This document shows, piece by piece, positions 26,262 to 38,613 of a stretch of 64,000 nt of DNA (positions are counted from its first letter, which is position 1; each line of letters opens with the position of its first letter). Origin of the DNA: an uncultured Hyphomicrobiaceae bacterium. Lineage in GTDB: Bacteria > Pseudomonadota > Alphaproteobacteria > Rhizobiales > CALHAX01. Both the position numbers and the translations under genes were made by a program. The DNA is taken from contig CALHAX010000008.1 in the NCBI GenBank assembly GCA_937931785.1, positions 1 to 64,000 on the forward strand, given 5' to 3'. The notes under the pieces were generated by a model. It ran no database searches. It was not told the DNA's origin and saw nothing but the letters and a program-made list of their open reading frames with translations.

Positions 26262-28730
26262 TCAGTGCCGGCTCGGCAGTGCGACCATCGTGCTCCAGTA
26301 ACCATTCAAAGTTGTGATCACGTCTTTCAAACCTTCGGCCGATGAAGGCTTCGAGATGTACGAGCTGACGCCCAGATCGTATGTCTTTTCGATATCGTCT
26401 TCCGAATTCGATGTCGTCAGAACAATCACAGGAATGCGACGCAGCGAGGGGTTCGACTTGATGTGCAACAATGCCGTACGGCCATCCATTTTCGGCATGT
26501 TCAGGTCAAGAAGAATAAGACCAGGCCGTGGTCGATCCGCGTATTCACCGATACCATTCAGATAGTCCAGCAGTTCTTGGCCATTCTCCACGAAATCAAT
26601 TTCGTGCTTGAAGTCGCTGTCGCCGAAGGCTTCACGCATGAACATGCGATCATCCGCATCGTCCTCAGCGATCAAAATCGGAATATCGTGCGAAGGACCG
26701 GGGCCCACGACAGCAGACTCCTCGTCGCATGGGGCGACACCCCGTTCTGCTTGAGGCGTTGGAGCCGACATGATCTCGGGTAGAGCGACTTCTGTCATCT
26801 GTGGAACGTCGATCTCAAGGGATGGCTCGATCGTCATGTACTCGGTCTCGGAGGCAACGAAGTCGTCCTCATCGGCGCACGGCAGCAGTTCGTCGTAGAG
26901 CTCCGGTGCGATGACAGCAGAAACAATCGGTTCAACAGAGTCTGCTGCAGGTTCACCAACCATCATTTCGCAGAAGTTCGGCACTGCGGTTGAAATTTCA
27001 TCGTCGACGATGATGGACTCTTCAACGATTGTAAAATCCCGAGACGACAAAGGAGCAGATTCAGAAGGTTCTGACGGAGCGTGTGCGAAAGGTTCACTCG
27101 TTGGCGGGAAGTCGAAAATATTGCTTGTTGCAGCGATAGGCGCTTCCACTCCGGAGCAGTCAGGTGTGGTTGCCAAATCAACGAAATCGGGTTCAGCGTC
27201 GAAAGTAATTTCACTTGAGGTGGATTGATTTTCGTCTGTATCGTCTGTTGCAGGAGAGGTCAGATCGTCCGCAGTAATCTGCATAGCGGGAGAGGAGGCG
27301 GCGAACATCTGAACAAAGTCAGCGAGGTCCTGCCGCAACTCAGGGGTCGGCGTTGTATCGGGTTCGACATTGTCGGATGGTGTTGTATCTTTCGTACCGG
27401 CTATATCGATCAGAGGCTCTGCCGTCGCCGCAGCAGTGGTTTTATCTGCTGCAATTTCATTCTCAGAAACAACCAGGTTGCCAACGCCATGTGAAACCTC
27501 GTTGCTTGTCACAACCATGTTTGTATCTGGCGCTGTCGGTTCTGCGTCCAGAATTTGCGTTACTTCAACTGGAGCAGGAATAATCGGCACAACAGGCTTG
27601 ATGAGGTTTTCTGCAGCACGGTTAGACGCTTGAAGGGCTGTAGTAATGCGAGCTGTCATCGGGTCAACGAACGAGGAGGTGGACTCGGTTTCAACCATGC
27701 CACGAGCATCATTTTTTGTCTCTTCGAGTGTCGTCTCTGATGCGGCAACTATAACGGGATCTGCTGTTGTGACGGCCTGGTCATCAACAGGAATGGTCGC
27801 CGAGGTGTCTGATGCGAATGTCAGCGTCACCGTTTGTTGGTAATCGAGAACCTGATCGCGGAAGACTGGAGCCTCGACGTGAGGTGCTTCCTGGCGGAAC
27901 GTTGGGTCAGTTTCCTGCACATGGTCTTCGGTCGGAGGAGCAATGTCAGAGTTTTCGTCCATATTTCTTGTATCCTGCGGCGTGACAATAGACTGGTCCA
28001 TCAGGAAGGCATCCTCTTCATTATATTCATCGAGTTCAGCAAGATCTGAAGCTGTGTGGCTAGCGTCGGATAGATCCTCTGACAGGCCTTGTTCACTGTA
28101 GTCGGCAGGGTTTTTCACTGTCTCGGTTGGATCCAGGACAGGAGTATCGACCTTCTCGTCTACTGTAGACAACACCGCGTCGGCAGTATCATCTGAAACG
28201 GCAACATCGTCGCCTGCAGCCAACTCCAACGTGCCAAGGGAGTTGTTGAGAGCATTGACCTGAGCATCAACTGCTTCGGCCATGTTGTTATGCACGAATG
28301 GTGCGTCGTCGGTTTTGACTTCGATCTCGATTTCAGCGTTTGCGTCGTGCTGTATGTCAGTTAGATCGCGTCGGGCCGAAGGGGCTTTCACGCGGCGCAG
28401 GGTTCCGCGGTTTTTTGGTACTGAGGACGAGACAATCTGTCTGCGTACAGGGTTCTTGATCTTTGGTTCATCAAGGAAGACGACGCCAACTTCGCCGGTG
28501 CGTCGCCAGACGACCTCGACATCAGCTTCAAAACCGTCCAGTTCGATCAGAAGCTCAAAGGTTTCCGGAACAGAAGAATGATCCTTGACCTGCAGTCGTG
28601 CACCGGTGTCCGAAATGTCGCGCACCACGCACGGAAGTGAGGCGCAACGTGCTGCAAAGGCGATTTTCCCGCCTTTGAGGACGCGTTTACGTTCCGATTG
28701 TCGTGCCTCTTCTGGCGTGGACAGCGCCAT
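26262..28730 (-). CDS. PilZ-domain protein with very long acidic linker and C-terminal response-regulator receiver domain
   Basis: The 822-residue protein begins with a PilZ domain (about 9-95) holding R10-x3-R14 and VVRDISDTGARLQV, the two c-di-GMP contact motifs. About 580 residues rich in Asp, Glu, Thr, Ser, Val and Pro follow, almost certainly disordered. The C-terminal receiver domain (681-822) has acidic residues 689-691, phospho-acceptor Asp742 in ILLDLNMPKMDG, Thr772 and Lys794, resembling Rcp1-type single-domain regulators. It is a monocistronic minus-strand gene. Such a fusion would link c-di-GMP binding to phosphorylation, but no kinase is encoded nearby. Confidence 0.85.
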   Translation of the reverse strand: MALSTPEEARQSERKRVLKGGKIAFAARCASLPCVVRDISDTGARLQVKDHSSVPETFELLIELDGFEADVEVVWRRTGEVGVVFLDEPKIKNPVRRQIVSSSVPKNRGTLRRVKAPSARRDLTDIQHDANAEIEIEVKTDDAPFVHNNMAEAVDAQVNALNNSLGTLELAAGDDVAVSDDTADAVLSTVDEKVDTPVLDPTETVKNPADYSEQGLSEDLSDASHTASDLAELDEYNEEDAFLMDQSIVTPQDTRNMDENSDIAPPTEDHVQETDPTFRQEAPHVEAPVFRDQVLDYQQTVTLTFASDTSATIPVDDQAVTTADPVIVAASETTLEETKNDARGMVETESTSSFVDPMTARITTALQASNRAAENLIKPVVPIIPAPVEVTQILDAEPTAPDTNMVVTSNEVSHGVGNLVVSENEIAADKTTAAATAEPLIDIAGTKDTTPSDNVEPDTTPTPELRQDLADFVQMFAASSPAMQITADDLTSPATDDTDENQSTSSEITFDAEPDFVDLATTPDCSGVEAPIAATSNIFDFPPTSEPFAHAPSEPSESAPLSSRDFTIVEESIIVDDEISTAVPNFCEMMVGEPAADSVEPIVSAVIAPELYDELLPCADEDDFVASETEYMTIEPSLEIDVPQMTEVALPEIMSAPTPQAERGVAPCDEESAVVGPGPSHDIPILIAEDDADDRMFMREAFGDSDFKHEIDFVENGQELLDYLNGIGEYADRPRPGLILLDLNMPKMDGRTALLHIKSNPSLRRIPVIVLTTSNSEDDIEKTYDLGVSSYISKPSSAEGLKDVITTLNGYWSTMVALPSRH

Positions 28731-33555: not shown

Positions 33556-34167
33556 ATGAGGCACCCAGATAAGGCAACTGTTGTAACCATGTTGGCACCC
33601 ACATCAGAATTTCGAGAAGGTCTGATCGAGGTACTTCCGGCACTGCGGCGGTTTGCGCTCGTTCTGACCCGCGCCGATGCCGATGCCGATGACCTTTTGC
33701 AAGCCACGTGCGAGCGGGCGCTGACGCGCTGGAGCCAGTTTCAGCCCGGAACGAACCTGACAAGCTGGCTATTCTCGATCATGCACTCCATCTGGAAAAA
33801 TCTGGGCCGCAAGCGGGCCACACGGCAACGTGCCCACACCGAGCTTTCACATCAAACCAGTTTTGAAGACGGCGATCGTATCGTCAGCGGGAAGATTGCG
33901 GTCACAGAGGTGTTATCGTGTCTCAAGGCCATTGATCCAGATCAGGCAGCGGCGCTGACGCTCATAGCCTTGGATGGTTTGTCGTATCGAGAGGCAGCAA
34001 CGGTGCTTGATATACCGCAAGGCACGCTTGAGTCCCGCGTCGCACGTGGACGGATCGCGCTGGGCCGAATGTTGGATGGACCTGAGCCGACCAGGAATAT
34101 GGGGGCCGCAAGACCTGTCGCACAGCAGATATCGGCGACAGGCGTGGCGAAAGGGAACGTGCAATGA
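33556..34167 (+). CDS. ECF-type RNA polymerase sigma factor
   Basis: The 203-residue protein has region 2 (RFALVLTRADADADDLLQAT followed by RALTRWSQFQPGTNLTSWLF and IMHSIWKN) and region 4 (ALDGLSYREAATVLDIPQGT, LESRVARGRIALGRML). There is no region 3, as in ECF sigma factors. A 25-residue tail after region 4 is Gly/Ala-rich. The start has AGG very close, so an ATG 11 codons later is possible. It overlaps its anti-sigma gene by ATGA. The regulon is unknown. Confidence 0.92.
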   Translation: MRHPDKATVVTMLAPTSEFREGLIEVLPALRRFALVLTRADADADDLLQATCERALTRWSQFQPGTNLTSWLFSIMHSIWKNLGRKRATRQRAHTELSHQTSFEDGDRIVSGKIAVTEVLSCLKAIDPDQAAALTLIALDGLSYREAATVLDIPQGTLESRVARGRIALGRMLDGPEPTRNMGAARPVAQQISATGVAKGNVQ

Positions 34168-35018
34168 CGATCACAGATGAGCAATTGCTGCAGCTGATCG
34201 ACGGGCAGCTGGACGATTCCGCTTCGGCCGATCTGCATTTGCGCATTGCCGCTGATGAGGACGCAGCCACACGTCTGCGTCTCATGACAGCAAGTGACGC
34301 GATGCTGCGTGCCGCGCCTATGCCGGATGCAACAGGTTTGGACACCCTGAAAGCGGCCATACGTTCCGGCACGCTGGACCCGCGCGTTGAACAGAGTAAA
34401 GGCGTTTCTTCGCTGGCGGGATCTTCAAGGCAGGCACGCATGCCCGCGGCGCGTCGTTCCTCTTTCATCACACCGCTGCAAATGGCTGCATGTCTCGCAA
34501 TTCTGACCCTCGGCGCACTGGGTGGCTACGTTGGCGGATCAGTGTTGAGCGATAGCGGTGAGGCCGAAATGGCTGGACAGCCCACATGGGTCATGCGCGT
34601 CGTTGACTATCACACACTATATGGACGTGAGACGGTTACGCCGGCAAAAGCGTCCCGTGAAACGATCGCGTCTTTGCAACAGACATTCGAAAATGCTCTC
34701 AACAACCGCATGCATATCCCGACAATGGGCGGGCGGAAGCTGGAATTCCGGCGCGGCCAGGTACTGCGCTTCAAGGAGACGCCGATCATTCAGCTTGCTT
34801 ATTTGCCTGATGAAACAGGTGCCCCCGTGGCGCTGTGCTTGCGACCTTCTTCAAAACCGGATGCCAAGCCGGAATACGTTTCATTGCGCGGAATGGGGGT
34901 GGTGCGCTGGCGCAGGAATGGGTTGGATTACATTCTTGTCGGACATCGCATGAAAGAGGATCTTCTGGCAGATGCAGACCGCGCGATCAGCGAAATTGTA
35001 GCAGCCGAAACGATCTAA
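34164..35018 (+). CDS. Anti-sigma factor, single membrane helix
   Basis: The 284-residue protein starts ITDEQLLQLIDGQLDDSASA, a helical cytoplasmic part typical of anti-sigma proteins but without the zinc His-x3-Cys-x2-Cys motif. One helix (MAACLAILTLGALGGYVGGS, about 109-130) separates it from a periplasmic domain (WVMRVVDYHTLYGRETVTP, IPTMGGRKLEFRRGQVLRF). Genetic coupling to the sigma factor supports the role. The C-terminal domain could be the sensor; its signal is unknown. Confidence 0.85.
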   Translation: MTITDEQLLQLIDGQLDDSASADLHLRIAADEDAATRLRLMTASDAMLRAAPMPDATGLDTLKAAIRSGTLDPRVEQSKGVSSLAGSSRQARMPAARRSSFITPLQMAACLAILTLGALGGYVGGSVLSDSGEAEMAGQPTWVMRVVDYHTLYGRETVTPAKASRETIASLQQTFENALNNRMHIPTMGGRKLEFRRGQVLRFKETPIIQLAYLPDETGAPVALCLRPSSKPDAKPEYVSLRGMGVVRWRRNGLDYILVGHRMKEDLLADADRAISEIVAAETI

Positions 35019-36196: not shown

Positions 36197-38293
36197 TCAC
36201 TGCAAGGTGTCCACATCGTTCTGTGTGACGATGTAATTTCCCAACATTCTGATCGTGTCACCTGGGCGAAGCACGGACCAGATACCGTTGTCCGGTGTTG
36301 CATCAGTCGAGTCCCCCAGCGGTACGGCGTCTCCGGTCAGGGTTTCATCTGCAGGCGACGGAGGCGCTCCGGAGGCATTGTGTGTGTCAGTGATGTCGAC
36401 ATTGTTGATTGTGACATTGCCGATATTAGTGACGAGATAGGTATAAATGATATCGTCGTTGACCCCGCGTTCCGTATCGTTGTCGGCGACCTTCGTGATT
36501 TGTAGCTCAGGAAGCGGTGCAATCGGTGTCACCACCGGCGCGTCGATCGGATCGCTGACCGATGTGCCGACGGGCGTATCAGCAGTTCCGGTCGCTGTAT
36601 TGGAAACGCCACCGGCATCAACATCCGCCTGCACCAGTGTGTAGGACACCGTGAATTGTACCGTGTTTCCCGGCGCAACAGACGCATGACTTGCGGGTGT
36701 TGGCGGTCCATCCAGTGTCAGCGCACCACCCCCGATGCGGGTCAGGGTGTCTGTCACAGTGACATTGGTCAGGGTCGACGTTCCTGTGTTCTCAACATTG
36801 ATCGTATATGTGATGACATCGCCAGCGTCACCAACCGCATTCAGATTTCCGCCGGTGACATCCAGTGATGCAGATTTCGTGGTCTCGATTGAAGATTGAT
36901 CCACTGTCACCGACTGGCTGACCTGATTGTTCCCGCCTGTCCCGGTTCCACCGTTGTTGTCATTGGTGGCACCGGTGGTTGCGACAACTGTCGAGGTTCC
37001 CGCCGTGGTTGGCGTGCCGGAAACCGCGCAGCTGATTGACGCACCAACTGCAACTGTCGCCGGTGGCGTCGGCGTACACGATGTGACCGAAACACCGGCG
37101 GGCAAGCCGACCACGGAGCAGGTCGCCGCGTTCGCACTGGATGCCCCGATGTTGGTGCACAAGACCGTGCCAGAGTAGGCCACGCCTACTTCTGCATTTA
37201 CGGGCAGACCAGCGAGGTTGGGCGTCATGTCCGACTGAGGTTGGTCGTTCAGGAACGTACACGTCAGCGTGCGTCCGACCGTGTACGAGGCCGCAGGAAT
37301 TGTGAGGGTCGTGCCGGAAACGCTGGTCGTGAGTGTGTTGCCCTGATTGTCGACGCATGTCGCGCTGGTCAGAACGAATGTACCCAAGCCACTCTCCGTC
37401 ACCGTAATGGGCTGGGAATTGTCAGACACCGTGAACGTGGCCGACGTCGCTGGGTTGGCAGTGCCGGTGTCGAGGTTGAATGATCCAACACCGTTTGTCC
37501 CCGTATACGAAAAGCTGCTCGTGCCGTTGGTGGATTGCTTGCGGATGATCACGCGTGTTTCAGGCGTGCTCGCAACAAACTCGAATGCGTCCCCGGTTGT
37601 GGTATTCGATGCGTATTCCCAGACCAGCGCAAAGGTCACGCTCGTTACGCCAAGCCCGTTGAACTGGATTGAACCGCAACCAGCACTACTACCGGCTGTG
37701 CAGGTTGACTGTACTGTACCGCCGTTTGTACTCCGGATGCTCGTTGTCGTGACGATCAGCCCGTTTGATCCATTGTTGTTCGAATCAAGCGCTGTAAGCG
37801 TAACGCCGGCAGGTGACGAGGTCGTCAGGTTCAGTCGGGCCGAGGAAGCTCCGGAGCCTGCGGAAGTACCGCCGAGGCGATCGATGTGGAGGATTGGATT
37901 GTCGACTGGTTTGCTGAACGTCACCGTGAGCGTTCGGTTCGTGCCGAACGGGGCCGCGTGGATCGTAAGCGACGGATCATTGGCCGGATTACCACCGAGG
38001 TGCGGGTTGCTGTAGAATGCCGTATTGTTGACAAGAGTATTTGTCGACGCGTTGTTGGTGCTGCCGGACAGTGTCAAAGTTACTGTGGTTCCAGCCGATG
38101 TCGCCGATCCACTTGTACCAGCCGCGGTCCAGGCTCCGGTCGATGCCGCGTGAGCGGAGTGTTCCAGACAGGTCAACGCAAGAGCGGCAACTGTCAGCCA
38201 ACGTGCCCTGGCAAGACATCGCTGAACGAAACGCGATGGGTTCGCGCTGCACAGTTCAATTGCGCGCAAATGCGCGTGACGGGGCGATGACAT
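36197..38293 (-). CDS. Secreted surface protein with Ig-like and DUF11 repeats
   Basis: The 698-residue protein starts with a signal sequence (TVAALALTCLEHSAHA). Parts follow in this order: a Thr/Ser/Gly-rich N-terminal domain; a prealbumin/SpaA-like repeat (VIIRKQSTNGTSSFSYTG to LTCTFLND); an Ig-like repeat with paired Cys; a complete DUF11 repeat (SASLDVTGGNLNAVGDAGDV to TATGTADTPVG); and a second one starting ELQITKVADNDTERGVNDDI. The last ends abruptly at TQNDVDTLQ, where such domains usually continue. It is probably exported and displayed or secreted. The ATG at 38293 is preferred over a GTG 13 codons earlier. Confidence 0.8.
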   Translation of the reverse strand: MSSPRHAHLRAIELCSANPSRFVQRCLARARWLTVAALALTCLEHSAHAASTGAWTAAGTSGSATSAGTTVTLTLSGSTNNASTNTLVNNTAFYSNPHLGGNPANDPSLTIHAAPFGTNRTLTVTFSKPVDNPILHIDRLGGTSAGSGASSARLNLTTSSPAGVTLTALDSNNNGSNGLIVTTTSIRSTNGGTVQSTCTAGSSAGCGSIQFNGLGVTSVTFALVWEYASNTTTGDAFEFVASTPETRVIIRKQSTNGTSSFSYTGTNGVGSFNLDTGTANPATSATFTVSDNSQPITVTESGLGTFVLTSATCVDNQGNTLTTSVSGTTLTIPAASYTVGRTLTCTFLNDQPQSDMTPNLAGLPVNAEVGVAYSGTVLCTNIGASSANAATCSVVGLPAGVSVTSCTPTPPATVAVGASISCAVSGTPTTAGTSTVVATTGATNDNNGGTGTGGNNQVSQSVTVDQSSIETTKSASLDVTGGNLNAVGDAGDVITYTINVENTGTSTLTNVTVTDTLTRIGGGALTLDGPPTPASHASVAPGNTVQFTVSYTLVQADVDAGGVSNTATGTADTPVGTSVSDPIDAPVVTPIAPLPELQITKVADNDTERGVNDDIIYTYLVTNIGNVTINNVDITDTHNASGAPPSPADETLTGDAVPLGDSTDATPDNGIWSVLRPGDTIRMLGNYIVTQNDVDTLQ

Positions 38294-38613
38294 GAATGCC
38301 CTGAGCTCCTGTGTGTCCCACCCAAACTGCACACCGGATCAACCAGCGCGCAGCGCATACGCACAAAAACTCGTTCAAACTCGTTGGTATCCAGCAAAAC
38401 GGATATCCGAATCAGCCCTATCAAAAACTAATACTTTGCACAATGAATGAGAACAGGCAGATGAATGTCTCGTAGAGAAATCTTCAGAGAGTGATCATGA
38501 AGCATCTGATCGGCGTGGGATTTCCGAAGTTGAGGCGCTTGAACTCAGTCTGAGCGGACAGCGGTGCTCTGAATTGATTTGGCACAGGGATACCACTTGC
38601 ATACGCTGTACGT
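38294..38613. other. Gene-free divergent promoter region
   Basis: The 320 bases separate the DUF11 gene (leftward) from a small secreted gene (rightward). Apart from a short direct repeat AAACTCGTT at 38367-38375 and 38377-38385 (10-base period), I see no structure. The repeat lies 74-92 bases upstream of the DUF11 start and might be a tandem regulator site. Confidence 0.4.

Follow-up and report, generated by a model that had tools for sequence, protein, structure and literature searches.

A PilZ-receiver protein with a long acidic linker in an uncultured Hyphomicrobiaceae bacterium, a plausible tethered two-input response regulator

A gene combining a PilZ domain and a receiver domain was found in a 64,000-nucleotide stretch of DNA (the window), which lies on contig C8 of a 3.66-Mb draft genome in 134 contigs. 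The closest relatives compared share only the order with this genome, and the named relatives of the gene were Hyphomicrobiales/Rhizobiales metagenome genomes. By ORF analysis of the window, positions 26262-28730 of the minus strand were read as a single uninterrupted frame of 822 codons. The gene is complete, and its 822-aa product is arranged as PilZ, long linker, and receiver; no domain was detected by Pfam between PilZ and Response_reg. There was no kinase gene beside it among the neighbours examined. A scan for sigma-70-type promoters and terminators gave two promoter-like sites against 1.7 expected, none of them upstream of the gene. Elsewhere in the window, an ECF-type sigma factor gene with a PhyR_sigma2-like region overlaps by 4 bases with the next gene, possibly an anti-sigma factor (33556-35018, plus strand). 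Positions 36197-38332 (minus strand) encode a protein of 711 aa with DUF7507/SpaA-like repeats, which is probably exposed at the cell surface.

The PilZ domain was assigned to residues 10-89 (28464-28703, minus strand) by Pfam (28.1 bits, cut-off 22.5), genome search (32.7 bits), and fold model. The N-terminal model was a six-stranded beta-barrel with a mean pLDDT of 64.5. The solved folds nearest to the isolated model were the PilZ domains of BcsA, PA0012, and MapZ, with moderate support (best Foldseek E 0.002), and no PilZ structure came up when the sequences of the PDB were searched with the PilZ profile. The two c-di-GMP motifs, RxxxR at residues 10-14 (RQSER, 28689-28703, minus strand) and DxSxxG at residues 38-43 (DISDTG, 28602-28619, minus strand), were intact. 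Loss of the c-di-GMP contacts was looked for in the alignment; the motifs were kept, and R10, R14, D38, S40, and G43 were invariant in the four fusions aligned first. According to PMC10333796, c-di-GMP-type PilZ domains are recognized by RxxxR together with (D/N)xSxxG, present here as R10QSER14 and D38ISDTG43. From motifs and fold, the N-terminal PilZ is predicted to bind c-di-GMP. Five GGDEF matches were found in the genome, so c-di-GMP can probably be made in the host. The PilZ unit continues into a basic tail, residues 90-117 (28380-28463, minus strand), which ends in TLRRVKAP at the point where stand-alone relatives end; residues 90-113 carry a net charge of +8. Only two other PilZ proteins were found in the host genome, i.e., a PAS-GGDEF-PilZ protein (L036:5421-7103, plus strand) and a tandem PilZ protein (L037:5097-5843, plus strand).

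The receiver domain, residues 685-805 (26316-26678, minus strand), was recognized as Response_reg with 70.9 bits (cut-off 30.2). The acidic pocket E689/D690/D691, T772, and K794 were present, together with Asp742 (26505-26507, minus strand), the predicted phospho-acceptor. The pocket residues, the Asp, the Thr, and the Lys are functionally important in receivers. The sequence-only reading, which had noticed PilZ motifs at the N-terminus and a full set of receiver residues at the C-terminus, was thus right at both ends of the protein. The domain is of the Rcp1/phytochrome-regulator type. Its closest solved relatives were RcpA (131 bits by sequence) and Rcp1, Foldseek placed it with this type (E 1.6e-12), and Foldseek with the whole model gave receivers only among the best 50 matches listed. 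Rcp1, RcpA, AtBRR, and DrRR (1k68, 1i3c, 5brj, 6xvu) share the receiver fold and sequence with the window protein, but they are single-domain regulators. In one search, the host draft genome gave no match to a PHY domain; a phytochrome partner, and with it a phytochrome light input, is therefore unlikely.

Between the two domains lies an acidic, probably disordered linker of 566 residues, 118-683 (26682-28379, minus strand). It contains 121 D/E and 18 K/R, i.e., a net charge of -103. It had been taken for nearly 600 acidic residues and for about 580 residues of low complexity. The long domain-free span was borne out, but D/E make up only 121 of its 566 residues. Its residue entropy (3.86 bits) is near the values of PilZ (3.89) and the receiver (4.02), so, strictly speaking, the linker is not of low complexity. 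A search for tandem repeats was negative, and internal protein repeats did not exceed chance, since 31 of 60 shuffles scored as high; a repeat-built linker was ruled out on these results. A known domain was also rejected, as the linker had no Pfam match and, among the NCBIfam matches listed (25 of 72 families), only sub-cut-off receivers appeared. In the AlphaFold model, the beta-barrel and the receiver were confidently predicted, and the whole middle stayed in pLDDT blocks of about 26-45. No sequence similar to the linker was found in 60 other genomes. Its length and charge thus appear peculiar to the lineage of the window.

The linker span is coding. Its frame has no stop in 566 codons, against 10-37 stops in the other five frames, and the highest coding score of the six. 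The synonymous-codon score of the linker was -0.009, compared with 0.058 to 0.178 in nine other window genes, and uniform-codon controls scored lower (mean -0.12, maximum -0.05).

Relatives of the architecture were searched in overlapping sets of 61, 397, 385, 103, and 1 genomes. In the set of 61, both domains shared a frame in one further genome, G023, and the scan of named genomes gave five loci, three of which were fusions. At least six PilZ-receiver frames are present in five genomes, i.e., the window gene (G000), G023 (L070), G256 (L071), G805 (L069), and two in G803 (L116 and L144); six is a lower bound because the receiver scan covered a part of the PilZ matches. In all these Hyphomicrobiales-type genomes, the domain order is that of the window protein. 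Both domains were supported by Pfam at or near the cut-off in four of the five other fusions, the exceptions being the receiver of G023 (26.9 bits against a cut-off of 30.2) and the PilZ of the second fusion in G803 (19.9 bits against 22.5). In 15 further PilZ regions (12 long or extended frames plus L052, L053, and L146) no receiver was detected in the PilZ frame, and L172 showed a weak 11-bit receiver-like match in a frame separate from PilZ. Related genomes do encode the domains as separate genes, as the sequence-only reading had considered. Its companion concern, that the fused frame is an error, is answered by the five other fusion frames in four genomes. The artefact could be imagined as genes misjoined in the assembly or as read-through of non-coding DNA, for which the 134-contig draft and a linker that has no relatives would leave room. 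However, five independent frames with matching domain order, together with the stop-free and best-scoring linker frame, make it scarcely credible, and it was rejected.

Three of these relatives have features of their own. L144 (L144:5158-5910, minus strand, on G803:C200) is a second, diverged fusion of 250 aa with a 26-aa linker; its DxSxxG motif, read by eye, is lost by an Asp to Ala change, and its PilZ is below the Pfam cut-off. In L070 (L070:5986-7065, plus strand), from the Rhodobiaceae record G023, the fused receiver is strongly diverged, with a tree branch of 5.9. A pocket Asp is replaced by Gln, and the Asp acceptor, Thr/Ser, and Lys are retained; it is a pseudo-receiver candidate. L106 (L106:994-1893, minus strand, on G790:C11) is related to the PilZ unit and carries 169 further residues at its C-terminus, which do not form a receiver.

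The linkers differ widely among the fusions. Measured after the PilZ envelope, those of G023, G256, G805, and the two of G803 are 101, 55, 69, 54, and 26 residues long, with net charges of -12, +1, +2, +1, and +2, respectively. These near-neutral or mildly acidic chains are unlike the window linker, which by the same measure has 570 residues and a net charge of -102 and is approximately 6 to 20 times longer than in any fusion relative found. The basic extension after PilZ is kept in all other fusions except L144. A rough polymer calculation, in which charge is neglected, puts the rms end-to-end distance at about 23 nm for 566 residues and at 4-8 nm for the linkers of the relatives; the effective mutual concentration of the domains would be about 0.04 mM against 1-10 mM. 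Because the chain would span such a distance, a loose tether is likelier than close domain-domain allostery.

The same variation could mean that the long linker drifts neutrally, as a spacer that is tolerated rather than used, and that the protein works like its short-linker relatives. Linker length, composition, and charge are indeed unconserved (26-101 aa and -12 to +2 against 566-570 aa and about -103), the 60 other genomes searched gave nothing like this sequence, and the synonymous-codon bias is weaker than in the nine other genes. On the other hand, a long open frame with such one-sided charge (121 D/E against 18 K/R) is unlike unconstrained codons, and selection, if only for solubility and disorder, seems to have shaped the composition. 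The spacer is, for us, a rather unlikely explanation.

Trees of the two halves were compared to consider the origin of the fusion. For these trees, duplicates were removed, and rows were kept only from 72 bits and 75 residues upwards for PilZ and from 95 bits and 115 residues upwards for the receiver. The fused receivers fell on one side of a branch with support of 99/99 (6 fused rows of 30), and the grouping remained at 99/99 without the diverged G023 row (5 fused of 29). Because the fused receivers form one group, the fusion is considered real and inherited. The PilZ halves grouped weakly, at 45/52 (6 fused of 47), and at 22/37 in the reduced set (5 of 26). A single origin is thus well supported by the receiver half of the sequences and no more than compatible with the PilZ half. 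Among the 22 stand-alone PilZ rows listed, two of which are one locus, the protein stops no more than 8 residues from the basic LRR-like tail in 20, the exceptions being L106 and L111. As these relatives end at the tail where the linker starts, it appears that a whole PilZ protein entered the fusion. G543, which belongs to a different group of the class, has a PilZ gene immediately preceded on the same strand by a receiver gene of this family, with 46 bases between them. This pair may be a second hint that PilZ and receiver work jointly. A module of a membrane MFS-like sensor and a substrate-binding protein, common to L115:3750-8695 and L035:8354-16030, occurs with the receiver-PilZ gene pair in G543 and with kinase-receiver-receiver genes in the genome of the window.

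Candidate kinases were indicated by the stand-alone receiver paralogs. In the host genome, a paralog of 154 aa on C125, with 62% identity, adjoins a PAS-HisKA-HATPase kinase of 702 aa, which itself has only distant relatives within the genome (best 29% identity). The nearest stand-alone paralogs in G804, G801, G256, and G803 adjoin HisKA-HATPase-REC-REC kinases of 763-784 aa. From its residues and these kinase-adjoining paralogs, the fused receiver is predicted to be phosphorylated by a histidine kinase. Helix 1 of receivers is a kinase-specificity surface and contributes to kinase recognition. It carries Arg in four of the six fused receivers, the window receiver included, and Glu in the six closest kinase-partnered paralogs; with this change, the fused receivers may no longer be served by the kinase of the paralogs.

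These paralogs also raise the idea that the fused receiver draws phosphate from the kinase of the C125 system, as a sink or competitor, and that this drain is controlled by c-di-GMP through PilZ. The high identity to the kinase-adjoining paralog is in line with this, as is the presence of a kinase-type stand-alone paralog in four of the five fusion genomes (G000, G256, G803, and G805). PilZ action on phosphotransfer also has a precedent in HapZ, for which inhibition of SagS-to-HptB transfer is described in PMC10333796. Yet helix 1 is diverged in five of the six fusions, Glu being replaced by Arg in four, and in G023 the receiver is strongly diverged and a close paralog is lacking. The sink is regarded as a decidedly unlikely role.

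The known protein most like the window protein is PixA (MXAN_1087) of Myxococcus xanthus, as described in PMC8316039. PixA has an N-terminal PilZ with all c-di-GMP residues and a C-terminal receiver with the phosphorylation residues, and is likewise an orphan gene with no neighbouring kinase. It binds c-di-GMP in vitro, and its c-di-GMP site was reported there as not important for the motility function tested. D180E loses function and D180N does not, so the unphosphorylated form seems to be the active one (PMC8316039). Since its acceptor is Asp180, compared with Asp742 here, the PixA linker must be short. The organism differs and the output probably differs; the likeness is one of architecture. 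The pairing of PilZ with a receiver, which the sequence-only reading had called unusual, is thus already in print, and the unusual part is the long, strongly acidic linker in one lineage. No PilZ-receiver protein with such a linker was found described in the open-access literature searched, where the only match concerned BcsE. PilZ proteins that act on two-component or chemosensory partners are also reported from Pseudomonas aeruginosa, i.e., HapZ (PA2799; PMC10333796) and MapZ (PMC12564702). Unlike the window protein, these are stand-alone PilZ proteins with no receiver covalently attached.

On balance, by analogy with PixA, we favour, with reasonable though not strong confidence, an orphan PilZ-receiver response regulator with two joint inputs, one origin, and the linker as a loose tether. 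The tethered two-input switch proposed from the sequence is plausible and remains the preferred reading, both inputs being predicted. In this regulator, c-di-GMP would act on the N-terminal PilZ, a histidine kinase would phosphorylate the C-terminal Rcp1-type receiver, and the two inputs would jointly determine which partner is engaged. A stand-alone PilZ and a duplicated kinase-partnered receiver may have fused once in the ancestor of the sampled fusions, as is best seen for the receiver half. In the lineage of the window, the connecting chain, at first tens of residues long, would then have grown into an acidic, disordered one of 566. With one domain docked at a site, the other might search a radius of about 20 nm. 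Two modes of dimerisation are described for receivers of the Rcp1 type, one through the alpha4-beta5-alpha5 face and one arm-in-arm (PMC8292422). Because of this, phosphorylation could lead to receiver dimerisation and bring two PilZ domains together. A flagellar-motor output is unlikely, as one search of the host draft genome gave no flagellin match.

A more specific role of the charge can be imagined, in which the linker is a tethered polyanion that occupies, in competition with c-di-GMP, the arginine-rich face of the PilZ domain in its own chain as well as that domain's basic tail (net +8), and is released by c-di-GMP binding or by phosphorylation-driven receiver dimerisation. We regard this as improbable and offer it as speculation. 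If true, it would be an electrostatic gate made from an intrinsically disordered region; no such gate in PilZ-receiver proteins was found described in the open-access literature searched.

The fusions have a meaning beyond the single gene. The PixA-like design occurs outside myxobacteria. With 26 to 566 residues between the same two domains, the linkers form a natural series for asking whether contact is needed or a tether is enough. If the two-input reading is true, c-di-GMP and two-component signalling would converge compactly in this family, within a bacterial order whose members are well studied.
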